From a virus, in the IMG/VR virus record IMGVR_UViG_3300020442_002661, positions 21,963-85,962 of that record: 64,000 nt of DNA; one strand, 5' to 3'. The first letter of the stretch is position 1. Each line of letters opens with the position of its first letter. A program made the translations under genes and the position numbers. This document shows, piece by piece, positions 1 through 44,374 of the stretch. The notes under the pieces were generated by a model, which was not told where the DNA came from, made no database searches, and saw only the letters and a list, made by a program, of their open reading frames with translations.

Positions 1-340
1 TGCTTTCTTCAACCTTATAATCATGATGCACACACATAACAGCATATCTATCATCTGCTTGATCAAACAATTCTTGTATGTCTGTTGTCAGAATCATATC
101 ACTATCCATAAACACTGCCCAGCCTTTAAAGTTAGTAAGCTCTGGAATAAGAAAACGTGTAAATGTAAATTCTGTACTTGCAAGTTTATCTATAGGCCTT
201 GTATACCAACCTGCATCTCTTAATTCTTGCTGTTTAAGTGGACGTATATCTACGTTTTCACTTTTAGTTTCAATACTATGTTTACAAACTTGATACGCAA
301 TATCTTCTCTAGTATCATATCCAATAAAAACTTTATTCAT
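1..340 (-). CDS. Glycosyltransferase, DxD type (3' end outside window)
   Basis: Reading the minus strand from the ATG at 340 gives an open frame of 113 codons that runs off the window edge without a stop. It begins MNKVFIGYDTRED, a start common in GT8-like and related nucleotide-sugar glycosyltransferases. A hydrophobic strand then ends in D79-S80-D81 (VFMDSD), the DxD motif that binds the metal and sugar nucleotide in GT-A enzymes. The ATG overlaps by one base the stop codon of the upstream nucleotidyltransferase-cupin gene, so the two are probably translated together from the late promoter at 1119-1126. Acceptor and sugar cannot be told from this fragment. The family call is firm; the substrate is unknown. 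Confidence 0.75.
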   Translation of the reverse strand, partial: MNKVFIGYDTREDIAYQVCKHSIETKSENVDIRPLKQQELRDAGWYTRPIDKLASTEFTFTRFLIPELTNFKGWAVFMDSDMILTTDIQELFDQADDRYAVMCVHHDYKVEES

Positions 341-1113
341 TAATCCCTTCTTTCTATATCTTCTTCGTAACACTCGCCCCATTGAATTTCTAGTATATGA
401 CTATTTACTTCTCCAGGATTAGATGCTTTATGCCAAACTTCTTTCTCAATTTCATATGGCATACCGTGCGGTTGTAAAGTAACTTCGTTACTTAGACTAT
501 TCCATTCTGTTTTCATATTTACTAGACCCTCTAATATAATCCATTGTTCAGAACGTTTAAAATGTTTTTGATCGCTTAAACTTTTGCCTGGATAAATTAC
601 AAGTTCTTTAACCTTATATCCTTGTGCAGGTTTATCATCTAAAACTCTCCAATACCCCCATTCACGCTCTGTCTTCTGCGTTTTCCATTCATCTAGTATC
701 CAACTACTTGAATTCATTTTATTTTCACCACCAACTCCAAACTTAAAGTCTACCCAAGAAGTGTCCCCATAAGTTTTAAATTCTGGTGTTGTTGTATTTG
801 TTCTATCGCCACCGTTTGCGAATATAACTTTTGTTCCTGAACCATGTGTAGCAAGCGTTTTATATATAGCACCACATGCACTATCGTCTCTGTCATCAAA
901 ACTAATTACTTTATCCACAACTTCAAGAGCTTCTATAATACTTGCCCTATCCTTAAATTGCATAAAAGGTCTACCTTTTTTACGAGTAAGCCATTCGTCA
1001 GAGTTTAGTCCAACATGTAATTCTGCTCCTAAACTTTTTGCGGCTTTAAAGTATTCAATGTGACCTGAATGAAGAGGATCAAATCCTCCTGTAACTAGTA
1101 CGATTCTTTTCAT
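340..1113 (-). CDS. Nucleotidyltransferase-cupin fusion (sugar-1-phosphate activation)
   Basis: The protein has 257 aa in two parts. Residues 1 to about 140 are a cytidylyl/adenylyltransferase-like domain with the HxGH signature (GGFDPLHSGH, 9-18), as in HldE C-termini and glycerol-3-phosphate cytidylyltransferases. A GGDR stretch near residue 100 occupies the place of the HldE KGGDY motif. Residues of about 150-257 look like a cupin of the type found at the end of ManC or type II phosphomannose isomerase (KHFKRSEQWIILEG, near 183-196). The family suggests transfer of a nucleotide to a sugar or polyol phosphate; the cupin may isomerise or epimerise the sugar. A perfect TATAAATA lies 5 nt upstream of the ATG. 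It shares one base with the downstream glycosyltransferase start. The domains are clear; the substrate is inferred. Confidence 0.75.
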   Translation of the reverse strand: MKRIVLVTGGFDPLHSGHIEYFKAAKSLGAELHVGLNSDEWLTRKKGRPFMQFKDRASIIEALEVVDKVISFDDRDDSACGAIYKTLATHGSGTKVIFANGGDRTNTTTPEFKTYGDTSWVDFKFGVGGENKMNSSSWILDEWKTQKTEREWGYWRVLDDKPAQGYKVKELVIYPGKSLSDQKHFKRSEQWIILEGLVNMKTEWNSLSNEVTLQPHGMPYEIEKEVWHKASNPGEVNSHILEIQWGECYEEDIERRD

Positions 1114-25567: not shown

Positions 25568-26815
25568 ATGATAAGAGTATATGGCGATATAATGCTAGAC
25601 AGGTGGATTAAAGGAGTATCACAGCGTGTTAGTCCTGAAGCACCAGTCCTTGTGTTACAAGAAGAAGAACAAATATTCTGCCCAGGCGGAGCAGGTAATC
25701 TTGCATTAAATATTGCAAGTCTTAATGGTAGTGTAAATGTATATGGTAGTATTGCACCAGATAAAGAAGGTTATAGAATTATTGATTGCTTTGAAAAGCA
25801 TCCAAAAATTAATTTTGCCGCTACACTAGATAGTAAAATTACAACTACAAAAAATAGATTAGTAGGTCAAGGAGGGCAACATATTGTACGTTGGGATAGA
25901 GAAGAACTTTATACCGGCGACGAAGCATACGAAAGATGTATAACAGATATAACAACAAAAGACATTGTGGTTGTAAGTGACTATGCAAAGGGAACTGTAA
26001 AAGAAAAAACTGTTTGGAATTTTGCTAGACGCTGTAAAACACTAGTAGATCCTAAACAAGCCCCTGCATATTATCAAGGAGCATATCTTGTAAAACCTAA
26101 TATGAAAGAATATGAAGGTTGGTTCGGAACATTCAATAAACTAGATGCATTAGATCATATTAAAACTTACGAATGGACCTATCTTGTTGTTACAGATGGT
26201 GCAAACGGTATGCATGTGTTAAGCGATGATGGAAGATATGAACATATTCAAGAAGAAGCAAAAGAAGTAGCAGACGTTACTGGTGCTGGAGACACTGTAC
26301 TGGCTGTCATTGCATACTTTATTGAACAAGGTTTAGATATGTTTGATGCTTGTAGGAAAGCATGTTATGCCGCGGCAAGAGCTGTAGAACACAGAGGAGT
26401 TCATGTAGTTACACATAACGACCTAGAAAAAGTAGTTTTTACAAACGGTGTTTTTGATATCTTGCACAAAGGACATTTACACTTATTGAAAGAAGCACGT
26501 AGTTTAGGTAATAAACTGATTGTAGCAATTAATACAGACGCAAGTGTACAAAGATTAAAAGGAAACGGCCGTCCTATTAACGATGTTCAAACAAGACAAG
26601 CACAATTAGAAGTATTGCCTTGGGTAGATGAGGTCATTACATTTACAGATGATACGCCTTTAGAACTTATTAATAAAATTAAACCAGATTTAATTGTCAA
26701 GGGTGGCGATTATAAAGTTGAAGATGTTGTTGGCCATGAGATTGCAGATGTGCATATTGTGCCTATAATAGACGGATTGTCGACATCTAATATAGTAGAA
26801 AAAATTACAATATGA
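25568..26815 (+). CDS. hldE: HldE-like bifunctional heptose kinase/adenylyltransferase
   Basis: This 415-aa protein has two domains. Residues 1 to about 285 are a PfkB-type kinase: DRWIKGVSQRVSPEAP, GGAGNLALNIASLNG and the late anion-hole motif VTGAGDTV. Residues of about 290-415 are a nucleotidyltransferase with TNGVFDILHKGHLHLL and VKGGDYKVEDVVG. This is the order of HldE (RfaE), which phosphorylates heptose-7-phosphate at C1 and later adds AMP in ADP-heptose synthesis. HldE is usually near 475 aa, so it is slightly short but carries both sites. It overlaps hldD by 4 nt. This is strong support for a phage heptose route. Confidence 0.85.
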   Translation: MIRVYGDIMLDRWIKGVSQRVSPEAPVLVLQEEEQIFCPGGAGNLALNIASLNGSVNVYGSIAPDKEGYRIIDCFEKHPKINFAATLDSKITTTKNRLVGQGGQHIVRWDREELYTGDEAYERCITDITTKDIVVVSDYAKGTVKEKTVWNFARRCKTLVDPKQAPAYYQGAYLVKPNMKEYEGWFGTFNKLDALDHIKTYEWTYLVVTDGANGMHVLSDDGRYEHIQEEAKEVADVTGAGDTVLAVIAYFIEQGLDMFDACRKACYAAARAVEHRGVHVVTHNDLEKVVFTNGVFDILHKGHLHLLKEARSLGNKLIVAINTDASVQRLKGNGRPINDVQTRQAQLEVLPWVDEVITFTDDTPLELINKIKPDLIVKGGDYKVEDVVGHEIADVHIVPIIDGLSTSNIVEKITI

Positions 26816-27636
26816 ACTTACTAATTACTGGCTCAAACGGATTTATAGGAAAAAATCTTGTAAATTATTTTGTTGATGAAGGACATACAGTTGCAGAATA
26901 TGATTACATAGAAAATGTAATTCCTGATTGTAGTCCTTTTGATCATGTTATTCATATGGGTGCTATTAGTTCTACAACAGAACGTAACGTAGAACAAGTC
27001 TTAACACAAAACTTAGATTTTAGTCATAGACTTTTACAAATTTGCGAAATGCAAGGAGTAAATTTAATTTATGCATCAAGTGCAAGCGTTTATGGAGATA
27101 CAGGCGTATTTAAAGAATATGGGCCCGTATATCCACAAAGTGCATATGCATGGAGCAAATACTTGTTTGACAGAACAATAAATCAAGTTGATAAAAAAGA
27201 TTGGATGTGCAACGTAAAAGGATTAAGATTCTTTAATGTTTACGGAGAGCATGAGGAAGATAAAGGTGATCAAATGAGTGTTTTTCATAAATTTAAAAAC
27301 CAAGCATTAGACACAGGAAAAGTTCATCCATTTGAAAATAGTAAAGAATATTTGAGAGATTTTATATATGTCGGCGATGTATGTAAAATTGTAGATAAGT
27401 TGTTAGATGTAGATGATAGTGGCATATACAATGTAGGTACAGGTACACCACGTAGTTTTCAAAGCATTGCAGAAGCAGTTGCAGAAAAATACAATGCAGA
27501 CATAGAACCAATACCTATGCCAGAAATACTTAAACAACAATATCAAAAATATACTTGTAGTGACAATACAAGACTACTTAAAGCAATAGGTAAATTTAAT
27601 TTTACAACACCGGAGGAATGGATATGCAAAGACTAG
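26812..27636 (+). CDS. hldD: HldD-like ADP-heptose 6-epimerase
   Basis: This 274-aa SDR protein has the NAD(P) loop TGSNGFIG (6-13), a YAWSK catalytic motif and HldD-like segments: GAISSTTE, YASSASVYG, RFFNVYG, EYLRDFIYVGDV and the final FQSIAEAVAEKY with IEPIPMPEILKQQYQ. HldD epimerises ADP-D-glycero-D-manno-heptose at C6. Normal length is about 310 aa. It overlaps hldE and the cupin gene (13 nt with the chosen cupin start). The match to HldD hallmarks is closer than to general epimerases such as GalE, but the exact substrate is inferred. Confidence 0.8.
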   Translation: MNLLITGSNGFIGKNLVNYFVDEGHTVAEYDYIENVIPDCSPFDHVIHMGAISSTTERNVEQVLTQNLDFSHRLLQICEMQGVNLIYASSASVYGDTGVFKEYGPVYPQSAYAWSKYLFDRTINQVDKKDWMCNVKGLRFFNVYGEHEEDKGDQMSVFHKFKNQALDTGKVHPFENSKEYLRDFIYVGDVCKIVDKLLDVDDSGIYNVGTGTPRSFQSIAEAVAEKYNADIEPIPMPEILKQQYQKYTCSDNTRLLKAIGKFNFTTPEEWICKD

Positions 27637-28046
27637 AAGGTAAAGTAGATAAAGGTTGGGGCTACGAAATAATTTGGGCCACAAATGAAAAATACTGTGG
27701 TAAAATACTTTTCTTTAACAAAAAAGGTTCAAAGTTTAGTATGCACTTTCATAGAGAAAAAGACGAAACATGGTTTGTTAACAACGGCAGTTTTGTTGTA
27801 CGCTGGATAGATACAAAAACAGCAACATTGTTTAGCCAAGTTCTTAAAGAAGGACAAACTTGGCATAATCCACCATTGCAACCACATCAATTAGAAGCAA
27901 TGGAAGATGGAAGCAGTATTACAGAAGTCAGCACAGCAGATAGTGTTGAAGACAACTACAGAGTAATTCCAGGTGATAGTCAATCGGAATTAACAACAAA
28001 AATTAAAGAGGTGGCAGATGCGCAGTCCAACGATAACGTGGAGTAA
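27624..28046 (+). CDS. Cupin protein in the heptose cassette
   Basis: This 140-aa protein has a single cupin barrel (KGWGYEIIWATNEKYCGKIL, then HFHREKDETWFVNNG and PPLQPHQLEA) with His residues placed as metal ligands. It starts with GWGYE, as sugar-phosphate isomerase or polysaccharide-related cupins do. The start at 27624 is chosen because GGAGG lies 7 nt upstream; the ATG at 27618 is too close to it. It overlaps hldD (13 nt) and the phosphatase gene (29 nt). It may isomerise or epimerise a sugar; function unproven. The nucleotidyltransferase-cupin at 340-1113 carries a related domain. Confidence 0.65.
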   Translation: MQRLEGKVDKGWGYEIIWATNEKYCGKILFFNKKGSKFSMHFHREKDETWFVNNGSFVVRWIDTKTATLFSQVLKEGQTWHNPPLQPHQLEAMEDGSSITEVSTADSVEDNYRVIPGDSQSELTTKIKEVADAQSNDNVE

Positions 28047-28653
28047 TGATGTAAACATTGATTTCTACAAACCAGATTATATTGCACCAAAGTGTGTTGT
28101 AGGTTTAGATAGAGATGGTGTTATTAATGTAGATATTGGAGATTACGTTTACAAAAAAAGTGACTGGAAATTTGAAGAGGGCAGTTTAGAAGCAATAGTA
28201 AAATTACGTAAATTAGGACACAAGATAGTTATTATAACTAATCAAGGCGGTATAGAAAAAGGTATCTACACACAAGAAGATGTAGAAAAATTACATGCAC
28301 ATATGTTTGAAGAATTTGGTAAGGCAGGTTGTCCTAGTATAGATGGATTGTACTACAGTGCATCAAGTGCAAAGAATGATATGTATGCAAAACCTAATAC
28401 AGGAATGTTTAAGCGTTGCGAAAAAGAAGTTCCTCATGTGAAATTTTCCCAAGGATATTATGTTGGTGATAGAATAAGAGATTTAAAGGCAGGATTAAAG
28501 ATGGGTGCGAAACCAATTCTAGTCCGAACTGGACATGGTAAAGAAACAGAAGAATTAATTAACAAAAGATTCACATATAAAAATATTAGGAAAGCAACAA
28601 AAGTATTTGATAACCTAGCCGCATTTGTTGATAGTTTAGATGATAATAGTTAG
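28018..28653 (+). CDS. gmhB: GmhB-like HAD phosphatase
   Basis: This 211-aa HAD-III enzyme has the catalytic GLDRDGVIN motif near residue 30 (first Asp the nucleophile), ITNQGGI, KPNTGMF and YVGDRIRDLKAG. It resembles GmhB, which removes the C7 phosphate from heptose-1,7-bisphosphate between the two HldE steps. The zinc-binding Cys/His loop of E. coli GmhB before the KPxPGM motif is absent (SASSAKNDMYAKP instead), so it may be a zinc-free variant. The first 25 residues are an extra stretch. Ribosome site GAGGTGG precedes the ATG. It overlaps the cupin and the next gene. Confidence 0.75.
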   Translation: MRSPTITWSNDVNIDFYKPDYIAPKCVVGLDRDGVINVDIGDYVYKKSDWKFEEGSLEAIVKLRKLGHKIVIITNQGGIEKGIYTQEDVEKLHAHMFEEFGKAGCPSIDGLYYSASSAKNDMYAKPNTGMFKRCEKEVPHVKFSQGYYVGDRIRDLKAGLKMGAKPILVRTGHGKETEELINKRFTYKNIRKATKVFDNLAAFVDSLDDNS

Positions 28654-38024: not shown

Positions 38025-39830
38025 TTAGGTGTTTTTTACAGTGATTAATTTGCCGTATTCAGGTAGATACAAGTACTCAATTTCACTATTTTGCAAGGTC
38101 CAAATAGCATCTTCAAGTTTTTCTACTAGAGGATCACCACCTAAATTAAAACTTGTATTGAATATAATAGGTAATCCTGTCTTTTCTTTGAATACTTTTA
38201 TAAGATCATAGTAATGCGGATTCTGTTCATGTGTTACTGTTTGAATACGACAAGTGCCATCTACATGTATAATACTAGGAATTTTTTCTGCTATTCCTTC
38301 TTGACAGTTGACAGCATACATCATATGCGGACTGTCGTCCATTCCACGTAGATCGAACCATTCATGCACATCTTCTTGTAGTATAGATCCTGCAAATGGA
38401 CGGAAATATTCTCTACGTTTTACTTTGTTAACATAATCTTTGCCATCTTCAAAACTAGGATCAAATAAAATACTTCTATTACCTAATGCTCTTGGACCGT
38501 TCTCGCTTTGGCCTTGGAAAATAGTTACAATATTCTTTTTTGTAAGCAATTCTACAACTTCTTCATGTGTAGAATCTTTCATTTCAACATCATCTGCACT
38601 AGTAAGCTCTTGTAATTGATCTTCAGTGTATGAATATTTTGGTCCTAAATATAATGTTTGTGTTTGACGCTTTTCAGTTTCGTCTTCTAGCCCATACCAA
38701 AACATCATTGCGGCACCCATTGCAGTACCAGCATCATTTGACACAGGCTCTACATACATTTCAATTCCTTTTTCACGTAACGTTTCTAAGTAATAATAGT
38801 TTGCAACACAATTTAATCCATATCCGCCACTCACTACTACTTTTTTCTTGCCTGTCATTTCGACTGCTTTTAGTATAAGATCTAAAACTTTTTCTTGTGT
38901 TTGTGTTTGCACAGCATATGCAATGTCTCTTCTACTTTGCAATAGAGTAACATCTTCTCCTTGGCGTGCAGGTTCTTTTAATTCATCGTATAAACCAGCG
39001 TTTATAAATGCGCCATTTGGATAATTTGGTACAACAATATTTCTATTTGTTAAAGGATACACTGCACCTTCTTCAAATAATTTTGGAAATTTATCATTTG
39101 GTTTACCATATGGAAACAAGCCCATTGTTTTTCCTGCTTCAATACTTGACCAACCGCAGTACATAGTTGCCGCTTCATATGCCTTTACAATTCCTGCTCT
39201 GTCATGTACAACTGCTGAGTGTGTTTTTCCATTTTCACCAAACATACTACTATCCATTTGAATAGCGGCACCTGTTACAGGTTCTCTTGTTCCATAAACT
39301 TTGTGTAGTGTAGAAAAGTTTGCAGGATATTCGCAATCAATAATACTTTCTGTTTCCCATGTCATGACTTGTTCTTCATTGATAGACAAAGGAATAAAAG
39401 TTCCTGCGCCATCAACAATAACACTTACTGCACTATCAAATCCTGAACGATAAAATGCACATGCACTATGAAGTTTGTGGTGCATAAATGCTAAATCTAT
39501 TACTTGTGGATGTTCGTATGTAGTAGAGTTAGACTTTTGATCTATCAATCCTAATTTTCTAGCAAGTCCTGTGTACACATCATCACCACTATAGTCAACT
39601 CTACCAGCAGTATCTCTCAATGATTGAGTATGTGCAACTACAAGATAATCTAACTTATCTGTATACTCTAAAATTTTGACCATACTTGCAAATGGTCCAC
39701 CGTCATATTTTTGTCTGCTTAATCTTTCTTCTTCAATAGAAAATATTACTTCTCCATCTTTAAGCAAGCATACGCCAGCATTGTGTCCTCTTGCAATACC
39801 TGCTATCCAAACTGGTTTTTTATCGCTCAT
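38025..39830 (-). CDS. NodU/TobZ-type carbamoyltransferase
   Basis: This 601-aa protein has both domains of the family. The N-terminal ASKHA part has ARGHNAGVCLLKDGEV, IEEERLSRQKYDGG, HHKLHSACAFYRSGF and VDGAGTF. The C-terminal YrdC-like part has QGQSENGPRALGNRSILFDP and REYFRPFAGSI. Members make carbamoyl-AMP and transfer the carbamoyl group to a sugar hydroxyl; WapO of Pseudomonas carbamoylates LPS heptose. The start directly follows the stop of the SGNH-like gene, and GT9 is next upstream, so the three form one unit. Length is normal for the family (about 570-610 aa). Acceptor unknown. Confidence 0.85.
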   Translation of the reverse strand: MSDKKPVWIAGIARGHNAGVCLLKDGEVIFSIEEERLSRQKYDGGPFASMVKILEYTDKLDYLVVAHTQSLRDTAGRVDYSGDDVYTGLARKLGLIDQKSNSTTYEHPQVIDLAFMHHKLHSACAFYRSGFDSAVSVIVDGAGTFIPLSINEEQVMTWETESIIDCEYPANFSTLHKVYGTREPVTGAAIQMDSSMFGENGKTHSAVVHDRAGIVKAYEAATMYCGWSSIEAGKTMGLFPYGKPNDKFPKLFEEGAVYPLTNRNIVVPNYPNGAFINAGLYDELKEPARQGEDVTLLQSRRDIAYAVQTQTQEKVLDLILKAVEMTGKKKVVVSGGYGLNCVANYYYLETLREKGIEMYVEPVSNDAGTAMGAAMMFWYGLEDETEKRQTQTLYLGPKYSYTEDQLQELTSADDVEMKDSTHEEVVELLTKKNIVTIFQGQSENGPRALGNRSILFDPSFEDGKDYVNKVKRREYFRPFAGSILQEDVHEWFDLRGMDDSPHMMYAVNCQEGIAEKIPSIIHVDGTCRIQTVTHEQNPHYYDLIKVFKEKTGLPIIFNTSFNLGGDPLVEKLEDAIWTLQNSEIEYLYLPEYGKLITVKNT

Positions 39831-40697
39831 TTAAAATCCTCTGTAATAATTACCCCAACCTTTAAGTTGTTTTCCTATACTATCAACAAAATAATCAAAA
39901 TCACCGTGTGTGCTAGTATAGCAGTTGTTTACTATATCTATCCATTTTTCTACTTGTTCAGGAGTATTCTGGCTTATATTTAATTTTGGTTTAACAACAT
40001 AATTCACGTAATCTGCATGTTGATTAATAGTAGGATGCCTATCTATATTAGGAGTAACACTATTTCTTATAATAAATTTGTATGGTTTTTCTGTATGTGT
40101 CCATGCAAAAACTCCAATAGGTTTTAACCATCTATCATTAAATATTTTATCTTTGTATTGTTTCAATTTAGGAATATCTTTCCATACATCTATTTTATTT
40201 GTGCTTTCTCCTTCACCGTTTCCGTCTTGAGGATAGTCACTATTCATTTTATTAATATACCCCATGCTTGTCATGTAATAATTAACACCAATACCTTCTA
40301 GAAACTTTTGTGTAAGCAGTATGTTATTAAGCGTATGCATCATATAACTATGTTCATCGAAAAAAGTTTTTATCCACTTTTCGTCATACAAATTTGCATT
40401 TATAAAATTAAAAATACTGCCAGATGTTTTCCAACCAACACCTGGTTGTGTATCATGACGCTGATCAAGTGTGTGCCAGTCATGTCTTAGATGACTTGTC
40501 CATTGTATTATTACTGTATCTTCTGGTGTTAATGTTTCTGATGCATGTAAATTAGCAACACGTTCTGCGATAGCTCTGTTGCCTAGTCCAGGATAAGCCC
40601 AATTTTCGTATGTGTCAAACTCACAACCTAGTATATCAGCCCAAGTAGGCCAAGCATAGTTTGTAAAAGAACACCCTAGTGCATAAAAACGTTTCAT
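39831..40697 (-). CDS. SGNH-hydrolase-like protein
   Basis: This 288-aa protein starts KRFYALGCSFTNY, the block I Ser motif (G-C-S-F-T) of the SGNH-like group found in marine phages. A GNRAIAERV segment could hold block II/III residues, and DRHPTINQHADYVN near residue 225 fits the D-x-x-H block V with Asp and His. Typical roles are deacetylation or acetylation of sugars and esters. It abuts the carbamoyltransferase start with no gap and overlaps the GT9 gene end by 1 nt, suggesting joint action on a glycan. The catalytic role is inferred from motifs. Confidence 0.6.
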   Translation of the reverse strand: MKRFYALGCSFTNYAWPTWADILGCEFDTYENWAYPGLGNRAIAERVANLHASETLTPEDTVIIQWTSHLRHDWHTLDQRHDTQPGVGWKTSGSIFNFINANLYDEKWIKTFFDEHSYMMHTLNNILLTQKFLEGIGVNYYMTSMGYINKMNSDYPQDGNGEGESTNKIDVWKDIPKLKQYKDKIFNDRWLKPIGVFAWTHTEKPYKFIIRNSVTPNIDRHPTINQHADYVNYVVKPKLNISQNTPEQVEKWIDIVNNCYTSTHGDFDYFVDSIGKQLKGWGNYYRGF

Positions 40698-41641
40698 TAT
40701 TCTGCGTCTGGATCATTTTCTCTTTTGATAACGCCAACAATATATTCACGCAGATTATCATCCATTTGCATTATACCTTCGTTAGCTCTATTAACAGTTT
40801 CGTCAACTGTAATTCTAATAGGATCGTATTGTCTATCTTTCATTCCCATGTCTACAATTTTTAATTTTTCTTGTCCTGGATATGATATGTTAATCGGAAA
40901 AGTAGATCCAACAACAACAGTAGTTTCTGTATCAACAGCATATGACAAATGTTGTCCAACACTATCACAACCTAAGAAATGATCTGCGGCTTTGATTACA
41001 CTTGTCCACTGCCTTAATCCTAGCCCCTCTGGCATAGCAACTTCGTTTTTCAATCCTTCACCTTTGAGCTCCATTTTCAATTCGCTCATCATAATAATTC
41101 CGTAATCTTTTTCTATAAGTTTTAATAACCTTTTTACATCAGCCCATTCAAAACTTCTTCCTGTTGAGTCCATAGGTGTTTCATTAATAATTTCTACACC
41201 TCTACCAAAAGGTTGGAATACTAATACTTTATCTTTTTTTAATTTTTGTTTTACTTCGTCAACTATTTGACGTCCTACAAGTATTTCATTATGACTTAAT
41301 TTTACAAAAGGTTTATCTAAATCTCTGACTCCTTTTTCATTAAGTAGAATATCAAATGCTTGTGATAAATTACATTTTTGATTATAGTATTCCCATACTT
41401 GATATGGTTCTGGGTTTACTACTTGCCTATGTTTTATTTCGCTTTCAAAAAGATTTTTATGCCAAGGATCGTATGCACGTTTATGTAGTGTAGGATGACC
41501 TTTAAACATATCTGTGCCACCTTCACATACGATAATAAAATCTTTATCTCCTGATTCTTCTTCATATTTTTCTAGTGCAGGAATAGAACACAGCATACGC
41601 CCAGCGCCGCCATTTAGAAAAAATGCCTTCGATCTTGTCAT
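40697..41641 (-). CDS. GT9 (heptosyltransferase-like) glycosyltransferase
   Basis: This 314-aa protein resembles the GT9 family, which includes WaaC/WaaF heptosyltransferases that use ADP-heptose. The start FLNGGAGRMLCSIPALEKY matches the G-G-x-G-D-x-L-x-x-x-P-A-L loop, with R in place of the usual D. The C-terminal part has FLGCDSVGQHLSYAV and VVGSTFPINISYP, in the place of the D-[ST]-G-x-x-H nucleotide-sugar motif. Because ADP-heptose genes are also present (25568-28653), a heptosyl-transfer role is attractive. Sequence is divergent, so confidence is moderate. It is the first gene of the unit with the SGNH-like protein and carbamoyltransferase. Confidence 0.6.
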   Translation of the reverse strand: MTRSKAFFLNGGAGRMLCSIPALEKYEEESGDKDFIIVCEGGTDMFKGHPTLHKRAYDPWHKNLFESEIKHRQVVNPEPYQVWEYYNQKCNLSQAFDILLNEKGVRDLDKPFVKLSHNEILVGRQIVDEVKQKLKKDKVLVFQPFGRGVEIINETPMDSTGRSFEWADVKRLLKLIEKDYGIIMMSELKMELKGEGLKNEVAMPEGLGLRQWTSVIKAADHFLGCDSVGQHLSYAVDTETTVVVGSTFPINISYPGQEKLKIVDMGMKDRQYDPIRITVDETVNRANEGIMQMDDNLREYIVGVIKRENDPDAE

Positions 41642-41658
41642 ATTATAATTACTCCATT

Positions 41659-41710
41659 AAAAAAGGTCGGACTCAACATTATATATTAAAGTATAGTGTT
41701 AAGTCCGACC
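41659..41710 (-). terminator. Strong hairpin terminator upstream of GT9 gene
   Basis: GGTCGGACT and AGTCCGACC pair (9 bp, then a mismatch and 4 more pairs) around a long AT-rich loop, followed on the minus strand by TTTTTT. It ends the virion-gene unit above and insulates the sugar genes below. Confidence 0.85.
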
Positions 41711-41739: not shown

Positions 41740-42444
41740 TTATGCTTCGCCTGCATCTGGTGGATTAGGATCATCCCAATCTGGAAGTGTTTCTTCTGAG
41801 AAAGGCCATTTCCAGTGATTAACATTAGCGTATTTACGTGGTGCATCATCTAACCAATCTGCATGGTTAGTAAGTGTAGTTCTTTCATCGTCTGTGAAAG
41901 TTTGGTTTGTGTCCGCTAAAGCACGTCTAATCGCATCTGATTGTCCCTCTAAACTGTCAAGAACACTTTGTCTTGAGTTATTGTGTTCTCTAAATTGAGG
42001 TTCTCTCCATGTGTCTGTTTCATGCGTGTATAGTAAACTGTCTTGGTAGTAAATGTGTGCCAACATACCTGTTGTACCTTCGTACACATGATTCCAAGTC
42101 CATTTATTACCGTCTGCATCAGTACATTCTTCTGTATAATCAGCGACATCTGGGTGTGTATACTCATCTGTCATAAATGCGGCGTAACGAGCTTTGTCGT
42201 CACTTTCCCATGCATCTAGCAATACATAATCGTAATCGTCTTGTTCGTATCCTGCTGGATCTAATGCTGGATCTGTTTTTTCATCTCCACGTCCCGCTTC
42301 GCGACACTGATTGTCATCTTTGTCCACTTGGACTAAGATATAACGAGGTCCAATATAGGTACACTCGAAAGTGTTACCATCCTCAGTCGTAGTATGATAC
42401 GGCTGATCGGGGTAGGTAACTGTAAATGTTTTTGTTTTAGCCAT
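41740..42444 (-). CDS. Acidic hypothetical protein near fibre genes
   Basis: This 234-aa protein is rich in Asp/Glu/Trp/Tyr with no known motif. The first 60 residues look like a beta domain (KTFTVTYPDQPYHTTTEDGN) and the centre has several Trp-containing stretches (WTWNHVYEG, then WPFSEETLPDWD near the end). GGAGATAGAG is upstream of the ATG and a weak late-like ATTAAATA (42472-42479) lies in the end of the previous gene. It is the last gene before the terminator. A small tail or fibre accessory role is likely from position. Confidence 0.55.
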   Translation of the reverse strand: MAKTKTFTVTYPDQPYHTTTEDGNTFECTYIGPRYILVQVDKDDNQCREAGRGDEKTDPALDPAGYEQDDYDYVLLDAWESDDKARYAAFMTDEYTHPDVADYTEECTDADGNKWTWNHVYEGTTGMLAHIYYQDSLLYTHETDTWREPQFREHNNSRQSVLDSLEGQSDAIRRALADTNQTFTDDERTTLTNHADWLDDAPRKYANVNHWKWPFSEETLPDWDDPNPPDAGEA

Positions 42445-42458
42445 TCTCTATCTCCGTT

Positions 42459-43415
42459 TTAGCTTTCTATATATTTAATTCGAACGATGCTATCACCACC
42501 GGCCCATCCATTATCTCTAACACCTGAACATGGTGTAGCCGCTGGACCACCTGATCCGTGTGGTACAAACATCGAACACCCTTGTGTTTGGTAACAACCA
42601 CAATGTCTATTACCGTCCCAACATTCAGTCCAATGACTTCCTGTGCCTGGCATTCTAGACAAACTATTTAGTGCGTTAATATAGCCTTGTATAGCCATTC
42701 CGGACCAATCTGATTGTCCATTGTCTGAGTCTAATGAATATGTTGCTACGCCACCGCACTCACTAAACATGCCTGGTGGTAATGCTGTATGGTGTTGTGT
42801 TGAACAGTTACAATTTGGATAGCAGTGCCAAAAAGTTACACAACTATATACTGTATCTCTGTTTACGTCTCCGCCGTAAGCATTTGCTTGCCAACTGTTA
42901 GCACATCTGTTACAAATGATACCGCAGTATCCGTTATACCTAGTTGAGCACCAGTTATTTGCTGAAAAACAGCACCAACGAGCTGTACCAGTTGTACACC
43001 AACTTGCACCACTCCATCCGCCTTCTGCACAAATACATCCATTGTTTCCTGAATTTCCTTGCCAGCATACTCTACCTGCTTCTGAACAACCTCTGTGACA
43101 TAAACTACCGTTACGACAACTCTTACCTGCATAACCACAAATCCAACATGTAGCCGCTACGTTAATTGTTTTCTTTGCATATGCACCAGAATTACCTGAA
43201 ATTGTTGCAGAACAACAGCACATTCTTGAAGCCGATCCGCCAGCGCCGATAACTTCTAATTCTACAGTTGCACTGCCCGGTGATATCCAACAAAAACATC
43301 CTGGGTATGTTGAGTAAGTTGCAACTTGTGAGTAGGACCAAATTTTTCCTTTTTCCAAGTTCTCCTCAACGCTGGCTGGACTTCTGCTCTGTAATAATGA
43401 TCTTAATCCTGCCAT
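42459..43415 (-). CDS. Cysteine-rich virion-type protein, copy 2
   Basis: This 318-aa protein contains 30 Cys (about 9%) including a CCC triplet near residue 65, many CxC and CxxC groups, and 13 or more Trp. The order is: a short helical start, beta strands ending in VELEVIGAGGSASRM, a Gly/Cys-rich centre, then GGPAATPCSGVRD and VRIKYIES. Start and end resemble Gly-rich fibre-tip domains of phages. It is a paralogue of the next gene (43418-44374, same length, same Cys pattern). A GGAGAG site stands before the ATG. Such Cys content in a protein folded in the cytosol suggests metal clusters or disulfide formation after release. Confidence 0.7.
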   Translation of the reverse strand: MAGLRSLLQSRSPASVEENLEKGKIWSYSQVATYSTYPGCFCWISPGSATVELEVIGAGGSASRMCCCSATISGNSGAYAKKTINVAATCWICGYAGKSCRNGSLCHRGCSEAGRVCWQGNSGNNGCICAEGGWSGASWCTTGTARWCCFSANNWCSTRYNGYCGIICNRCANSWQANAYGGDVNRDTVYSCVTFWHCYPNCNCSTQHHTALPPGMFSECGGVATYSLDSDNGQSDWSGMAIQGYINALNSLSRMPGTGSHWTECWDGNRHCGCYQTQGCSMFVPHGSGGPAATPCSGVRDNGWAGGDSIVRIKYIES

Positions 43416-43417
43416 GT

Positions 43418-44374
43418 TTAACTCTCCACAAACTTAATTCTAATTGCGCCCATTCCACCTCTAACAGCATGATCTCTCACGCCTGGGCAAGGCTGAGGTC
43501 CTGGTCCGCCAACTCCGTATGGTAACATACTTTGACAACCGTTAGTGTGATAACAACCACAACTTGTGTCGTTTCTAAAACAACCTTTCCATTGTGTACC
43601 CATTCCTGGGGATTTTCCTGTACCGTTAATTGCGGCTAATGCACTGCCCCAACCCATACCCGACCAATTCGAGTGAGCTGAATCACTATCCATTCCGTAA
43701 CCAACAACGCCTCCACATTCTGCAATCATGCCTGGAGGAAATGCAACAAAGCCTCTAAATAAACAAATACATGATGGGCGGCAACCATGGAAGCCCATAC
43801 ATGAAATGTTTCCGCATCTGTTTACGTCTCCGCCATATGCAATAGCGTCCCATTGTCCTGTACATTGATTACAAATTGTACCACAGTTTGGTCCTGTATT
43901 TGTATGACAGAAACCGCCTGCTCTAAAACAACAGTACATACTTGATCCGGTTGAACAATAACTTACTCCGCCTTTACCGCCTCTTGCACACATACAACCG
44001 TTTGTTGATGAGCTAAACCAGCAAAGCATAGTAGGTTCTGAACAACCTCTAAAGCATAATGCGTCTGAATTTCCACAAGCAAAACCTACACAACCGTATA
44101 TGTAGTTGCTTGTTCCCATTGTAATTGTTCTTTTACTGTAAGAACCGGAGTTACCTGGTAAACCATTACCACAACAGCACATTTTAGCACCAGAACCACC
44201 AGCACCCCACATTTCAATTGTCACTGTTCCTGTGGCAGTTGGACACCAACAAATACATTTACAAAACTTAGTATATGTATTGCCCTCCGCAAAGCTATAG
44301 ACTCTTCCAGTTTCTAGGTTATCTTCACCTTTACTCGGAACCTTAGCTTTAATTAGTGTTTCTAATGATGCCAT
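43418..44374 (-). CDS. Cysteine-rich virion-type protein, copy 1
   Basis: This 318-aa protein has 32 Cys (about 10%), with CKCICWC near residue 38 and the CCC triplet at about 65. Its skeleton aligns with the downstream copy: VTIEMWGAGGSGAKMCCC, then RGCSEP, GDVNR, PPGM-x-x-ECGGV, G-C-Y-H/Q-T-x-G-C and a C-terminal IRIKFVES. The copies are a tandem duplication with much divergence outside Cys and Gly. An AGGAGAAG ribosome site precedes the ATG. The Gly-rich core resembles adhesin tips at the ends of phage fibres, so host contact is a reasonable guess. No signal peptide is present. Confidence 0.7.
   Translation of the reverse strand: MASLETLIKAKVPSKGEDNLETGRVYSFAEGNTYTKFCKCICWCPTATGTVTIEMWGAGGSGAKMCCCGNGLPGNSGSYSKRTITMGTSNYIYGCVGFACGNSDALCFRGCSEPTMLCWFSSSTNGCMCARGGKGGVSYCSTGSSMYCCFRAGGFCHTNTGPNCGTICNQCTGQWDAIAYGGDVNRCGNISCMGFHGCRPSCICLFRGFVAFPPGMIAECGGVVGYGMDSDSAHSNWSGMGWGSALAAINGTGKSPGMGTQWKGCFRNDTSCGCYHTNGCQSMLPYGVGGPGPQPCPGVRDHAVRGGMGAIRIKFVES

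Follow-up and report, generated by a model that had tools for sequence, protein, structure and literature searches.

We analyzed a 64,000-nucleotide stretch of viral DNA (hereafter the window), which spans positions 21963-85962 of the 86 kb IMG/VR virus record IMGVR_UViG_3300020442_002661. In it a GT9-fold transferase gene and a carbamoyltransferase gene make up the core of a cassette, of which ADP-heptose synthesis is a linked optional part. Both core genes prolong a minus-strand run of tail-fiber genes, and their most constant partners are cysteine-rich (Cys-rich) proteins with a predicted fiber-tip fold and a chaperone-like protein. The explanation that we favor, and to which we give an even chance, is that the cassette decorates the virion: heptose would be put on the phage's own fiber tips and then carbamoylated. 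The phage is marine, and its terminase is most similar to those of jumbo T4-like phages such as PA5oct.

A conserved core with linked ADP-heptose genes

A preliminary description, made from the sequence, had outlined a unit of GT9-like, SGNH-like and carbamoyltransferase genes at 38025-41641, preceded by a strong terminator and possibly connected to ADP-heptose genes 10 kb away. We confirmed the unit, with motifs as the only basis of the SGNH label. It consists of three intact co-directional open reading frames (ORFs) on the minus strand (38025-39830, 39831-40697 and 40697-41641) that abut or overlap by one base. Its limits had been drawn too small, as the most constant partners are the fiber-tip proteins and chaperone at 41740-44374.

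Co-occurrence in related phages had been proposed as a check of the connection to the ADP-heptose genes. We counted 121 viral GT9 loci (80 in a first set and 41 further ones) and found a carbamoyltransferase near GT9 in 121/121, a count that is not independent, since the loci are related to one another. Likewise, a GT9 match over 80% or more of the query was found in 23 phage records, and every one of them holds a carbamoyltransferase and HldE-C. P-SSM2 and S-CAM1 have, between their fiber and neck genes, a single block of the genes for GT9, carbamoyltransferase, HldE-C, HldE-N, a small HAD, a cupin and HldD. The same gene order recurs in a marine single-cell phage contig, and S-SSM7 and Sf-FS3 have the GT9-to-HldD block interrupted by a few insertions. 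Terminase served as an independent handle for retrieving all but one of a set of 16 records, in which full-length HldE-C was present in 6/6 GT9-positive as against 1/10 GT9-negative ones (nominal Fisher p=0.0009). The check therefore came out positive, and the connection is well supported by both the cyanophage blocks and the terminase relatives. About half of the long GT9-positive contigs are missing the hld genes, so ADP-heptose synthesis is optional.

In the window the ADP-heptose genes are on the plus strand at 25568-28653, with a cupin gene interleaved. They encode an HldE-like fused heptose-7-phosphate kinase and heptose-1-phosphate adenylyltransferase (25568-26815; NF008454 E=4e-105, TIGR02198, TIGR02199), an HldD-like ADP-glyceromanno-heptose 6-epimerase (26812-27636; TIGR02197 E=2e-71), the cupin (27618-28046; phrog_7851) and a GmhB-like HAD phosphatase (28018-28653; NCBIfam). 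HldE, HldD and GmhB are the top NCBIfam matches of the respective genes, all under the equivalog cut-offs. The cupin accompanies the cassette in cyanophages and has weaker matches in some GT9-negative phages too. The 86 kb contig, a fragment, yielded no GmhA. Members of T4-GC 306 / phrog_1238, such as PSSM2_311 (L001:16903-17247; 114 aa), are annotated 'phosphoheptose isomerase'. PSSM2_311 has no Pfam match and reads as a small HAD-type phosphatase with a DIDGTI start, not as a SIS-domain isomerase; from its sequence, the annotation is likely an error and the protein would occupy the GmhB slot. Elsewhere in the window (340-1113, minus strand), an HldE-C-like nucleotidyltransferase is fused to a mannose-6-phosphate isomerase-type cupin, a fusion kept at 53-71% identity in GT9-negative relatives.

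The two core enzymes

The transferase gene (40697-41641, minus strand; 314 aa) is a weak GT9 member by sequence. It scores E=0.015 and 15.1 bits against Pfam GT9 (PF01075; cut-off 22) and E=0.0012 and 17.9 bits against TIGR02201 (cut-off 170), and its PHROG match is phrog_8954, listed 'unknown' (E=4e-140). An hmmsearch of its alignment against the PDB matched no GT9 chain, and profile-profile comparison gave low probabilities (WaaC 6.5%, WaaF 16%), so GT9 membership rests on the fold. By structure, membership is clear in the AlphaFold2 model, which was built from 52 homologs (pLDDT 91) and matched 3tov (Z 22.3), WaaF (20.1), TibC (19) and WaaC (19), overall at Z 18-22, as against Z of 11 or lower for non-GT9 or unrelated GT-B folds; the exception is a trio of chloroplast NDH subunits, likewise of GT9-like fold, which reach Z 18. 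The preliminary GT9-like call thus holds for the modeled fold, while the family profile scores lie under their cut-offs.

For the 601 aa product of 38025-39830, sequence evidence argues strongly for a NodU/TobZ-type O-carbamoyltransferase. It combines a Kae1-like N-domain and a YrdC-like C-domain, matches PF16861 (E=7e-58) and PF02543 (8e-25) over their cut-offs as well as phrog_1601 (5e-170), and has 7xb6, GdmN and TobZ as its nearest solved structures. Compared with 7xb6, the HHxxxH and FQG..GPRALGNRSI motifs of the metal and carbamoyl sites are retained. Nine loci have the order GT9-carbamoyltransferase-GT9, in which the additional GT9-like gene shares about 52% identity with the query, an arrangement that looks like provision for a second sugar. 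Distant cyanophage carbamoyltransferases, in S-RIM44, Sf-FP1 and Sf-CH3, adjoin thymidylate synthase genes, an arrangement reported for the DNA 5-hydroxymethylcytosine (5hmC) carbamoyltransferase (PMC8670742).

Cysteine-rich, predicted fiber-tip proteins and a chaperone-like protein accompany the core

Directly beyond GT9, on the same strand, are a tail(-fiber) assembly chaperone-like gene (41740-42444; phrog_9740) and two tandem genes for Cys- and Gly-rich proteins of phrog_4205 (42459-43415 with 9.4% cysteine and 43418-44374 with 10.1%), the proposed acceptors. Homologs of the phrog_9740 protein, whose gene sits between the Cys-rich genes and GT9, match the tail assembly chaperone PF16778 and the tail fiber assembly family phrog_4912. 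Most loci have between one and three such proteins, of 8-12% cysteine and 14-22% glycine content, beside the GT9-carbamoyltransferase pair. Cysteine content is bimodal, with a mean of 9.7% in 183 unique proteins vs 0.7% in other ORFs; these proteins hold about 31 cysteines each, and 176/183 contain CCC. They were found at 111/121 GT9 loci, and the other 10 are on contigs that end near the site. Four long GT9-negative relatives, with 562 ORFs in all, had none, nor did S-SM2 with its 152 ORFs.

The reverse search gave a similar picture. Of 74 Cys-rich loci, 62 have GT9 within 10 kb, and for 2 others GT9 lies at another place on the record; those with no GT9 on the record are mostly cut contigs. 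Within the phage collection, the P-SSM2 Cys-rich protein matched only phages and single-cell samples that also have GT9. A tblastn search of phages with the Cys-rich protein of the window itself gave no match. Two divergent relatives (G050, G057) have a longer protein with 5% cysteine and 18% glycine at the equivalent place. In the GT9-positive record G063, a Cys-rich gene is cut by the contig end.

An AlphaFold2 model of the 43418-44374 product (85 homologs, pLDDT 82) matched the Pam3 tail fiber (7ypx, Z 16.1) and the Bxb1 tail tip (9d93, Z 12.7), followed by the ALK/LTK glycine-rich domain (Z 8-9) and then by nothing above 4.4. The Cys/Gly-rich proteins are accordingly predicted, from this model, to have the glycine-rich fold of phage tail-fiber tips. 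A Cys-rich fiber paralog (L284; L240:10001-10954) has in its vicinity a gene that, from its sequence, looks like one for a T4 gp23-like major capsid protein. In L284, over 20 kb separate this paralog from the GT9 locus on its record (L284/L017).

Other candidate partners were rejected. 2OG-Fe(II) oxygenases and tryptophan halogenase fail as obligate partners: GT9-negative controls have them too, and of 136 GT9-positive pieces just 7 and 4, respectively, do; in a few phages such genes adjoin the cassette (L216:11198-14096, L002:15914-17402). NUDIX was dropped because it is found in GT9-negative phages as well.

A copy on a woesearchaeal chromosome

Contig L173, titled Woesearchaeota, holds the module among cellular neighbors that read as Cbf5-like, endonuclease III-like and enolase-like. 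There, GT9 (phrog_8954, E=2e-78), the carbamoyltransferase (phrog_1601, E=1e-157) and a GmhB-like HAD follow a Cys/Gly-rich protein of 593 aa that bears a Tat-like signal; HADs related to the window's GmhB-like gene come after the carbamoyltransferase in L172 as well. Elsewhere in the woesearchaeal genome HldE-N, GmhB-like, HldE-C and epimerase genes form one cluster, although the genome is a metagenome bin and the HldE contig is possibly mis-binned. Archaea have no lipopolysaccharide (LPS), and that the module stands on the chromosome of one suggests a surface-protein glycosylation system of wider reach.

Proposed decoration of the virion and its alternatives

Under the explanation that we favor, HldE, GmhB and HldD would make ADP-heptose from a host precursor, with GmhA supplied by the host, and phages without hld genes would use host ADP-heptose. 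The GT9-fold enzyme would then transfer the sugar, in the cytoplasm and through either oxygen or sulfur, to the adjoining Cys/Gly-rich fiber-tip proteins as they fold with the chaperone, and the carbamoyltransferase would O-carbamoylate the attached sugar. A tip modified in this order of steps might benefit the phage by changing adhesion, stability or recognition. Because the fiber and chaperone partners are constant and an LPS-free archaeon has the module, the likeliest target is the virion fiber and not host LPS or DNA. Thus, of the three targets named in the preliminary description, virion protein is favored, LPS is weaker and DNA is unlikely. The idea of a system that makes, attaches and carbamoylates heptose gains from the gene linkage and the GT9 fold, and loses in that synthesis is optional and donor specificity unproven.

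Several observations weigh against decoration of the fiber with heptose. The position of the catalytic Asp (SMGD in WaaC, WVGD in WaaF; D110, the catalytic base, in TibC, PMC4358343) is an invariant Arg15, in GGAGR, in 52/52 aligned members, which is what leaves the donor unproven. Strong hldD and hldE-C matches were found in only 8/16 GT9-positive contigs of at least 90 kb, and S-SM2 carries hld genes in another sugar cluster, with neither GT9 nor Cys-rich proteins. A 66 kb contig (G075) with Cys-rich proteins and no GT9 may be a true exception. The relatedness of the counted loci, noted above, belongs here too, and proximity is no proof of acceptor identity: the entire region is tail-fiber territory.

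The first three of these points are what one would expect if the GT9-fold enzyme acted on fibers with another sugar, or were an inactive fold-assisting partner, while the hld genes fed another glycan; in S-SM2 the hld genes indeed stand with other glycosyltransferases. We consider this unlikely, though it deserves to be taken seriously. The D-S-x-G-x-H motif of the diphosphate site is intact, with D226, S227, G229 and H231 invariant and aligned to DTGLSH of WaaC; hld genes directly follow the GT9-carbamoyltransferase pair in several lineages; and gain and loss of hld and GT9 track each other among the terminase relatives. Heptose is the probable donor, favored by the hld linkage and by the nearest folds, which are ADP-heptose enzymes including TibC, a protein heptosyltransferase that acts on an adhesin (PMC4358343).

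We hold it to be just as unlikely that the target is host LPS, which the cassette would alter with carbamoylated heptose, for instance to exclude other phages. Bacterial GT9 enzymes and WapO do act on LPS core heptose (PMC8005017), LPS-type genes are known in pelagiphages (PMC7029224) and in large cyanophages (PMC3037559), and the present phage also has KdsA- and KdsB-like genes. The constant partners, however, are fiber proteins and a chaperone and not LPS genes, and the cassette is kept in cyanophages even though marine Synechococcus LPS is without heptose (PMC4515613); the LPS-free archaeon has it as well. The KdsA-like (DAHP_synth_1) and KdsB-like (CTP_transf_3) genes lie at record positions upstream of the window (L005:10212-11637, minus strand), and a carbamoyltransferase N-domain protein stands alongside them (L005:3499-4461). 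They had prompted an LPS-only reading, which we rejected because they are conserved in GT9-negative relatives (G052, G055), where they point to a second, separate sugar system.

Within the proposal of fiber-tip decoration, an improbable variant makes the conserved cysteines the acceptors: the GT9-fold enzyme would be an S-heptosyltransferase, with carbamoylation to follow. The loss of the base Asp to Arg would then make sense, since a thiol needs no strong base. If true, this S-linked carbamoylated heptose, carried by phage fibers as well as by a surface protein of an archaeon, would represent a type of protein glycosylation that is new.

DNA hypermodification, in which the carbamoyltransferase would act on a modified base, has very little in its favor: the same superfamily makes 5-carbamoyloxymethylcytosine in phage-like contigs, but 5hmC carbamoyltransferases travel with thymidylate synthase homologs (PMC8670742), of which there are none in the present contig and 12 other GT9-positive records, and the gene studied here is flanked by fiber genes.

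Other features of the locus

The terminator claimed in the preliminary description proved to be strong. Directly upstream of GT9 (41659-41710, minus strand) is an intrinsic terminator, formed by a hairpin at 41665-41710 and a following T6, with a folding energy of -32.8 kcal/mol (z=-7.7) that none of 200 shuffles equaled. It is absent from a consensus terminator scan because that scan was limited to loops of at most 8. Most relatives have a hairpin at the same position before GT9, with a stem sequence that differs entirely between phages, and the loops of such hairpins often contain ATATATAA. For a late-promoter-like motif in the loop of the terminator, TATATAAT, 44 bases before the GT9 start, we make no claim, since, among the genes checked, similar motifs precede only four others.

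The SGNH-like protein (39831-40697, minus strand; 288 aa) is an optional member; its candidacy as an obligate partner was rejected, as it is present at 31/80 loci. Across 11 aligned homologs, GCS close to the N-terminus is invariant and a (D/E)xHPxxxQH motif comes late in the sequence. When checked against the SGNH blocks (GxSx, Gly, Asn, DxxH), Ser10 and HP...H were invariant and the block III Asn was not evident; profile and family searches of the sequence gave no match.

Relation to known systems

Each family on its own is already known, as is the cyanophage 'LPS' cluster (PMC7378029, PMC3037559). The clusters T4-GC 302-308 of P-SSM2 and S-SSM7 hold the same genes. In PMC3037559, T4-GC 304, 305, 307 and 308 are said to co-occur and possibly to be functionally linked, and their function is left open between 'stuffer DNA' and a functional role; in its available part, neither GC 302/303 nor Cys-rich proteins are tied to them. 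A full-text search, which covered few subscription journals, found no literature linking Cys-rich fiber proteins to GT9 and a carbamoyltransferase. For these 'LPS genes' of open function our analysis offers a hypothesis that is specific and testable, namely that they modify the tail-fiber tip, and P-SSM2, S-CAM1 and S-SSM7 are culturable carriers. It also proposes a likely role for three families listed as unknown, phrog_8954, phrog_4205 and phrog_9740. Fiber modification would affect adsorption and the annotation of receptor-binding proteins and, should the hypothesis hold, chemical decoration of the host-contacting part of the particle would be shared by many aquatic phages.

In Pam3 the fiber gp24 is folded by the chaperone gp25, a pairing of fiber and assembly-chaperone genes that resembles ours, and the Cys-rich proteins are predicted to share the fold of the Pam3 fiber. 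The Pam3 fiber differs in its plain Gly-rich tip, and the available part of its description reports no modification genes or Cys lattice (PMC9608196). WaaC, WaaF and Pseudomonas WapO share with the cassette the glycosyltransferase fold and, as proposed here, the same product chemistry of heptose and carbamoylation; WapO (PA5005), cited in the preliminary description as an LPS-heptose carbamoyltransferase, is indeed so described, putatively (PMC8005017). The phage system differs from them in its tail-fiber setting, in the Arg at the Asp13 position and in that it occurs in an archaeon as well as in phages whose hosts have heptose-free LPS.

Another close parallel is with the bacterial autotransporter heptosyltransferases TibC and Aah (PMC4358343), which have the GT9-type GT-B fold, act on a surface-adhesin protein and are encoded beside their acceptor; an ADP-heptose donor would probably be shared as well. 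Unlike them, the phage enzyme has no N-terminal beta-barrel (its alignment begins at TibC residue 92/93), has no four-Cys iron finger (its sequence holds no CxxC) and carries Arg in place of Asp110. The phage system is further set apart by a proposed acceptor that is a Cys-rich phage fiber and by the carbamoyltransferase that is always attached to it.

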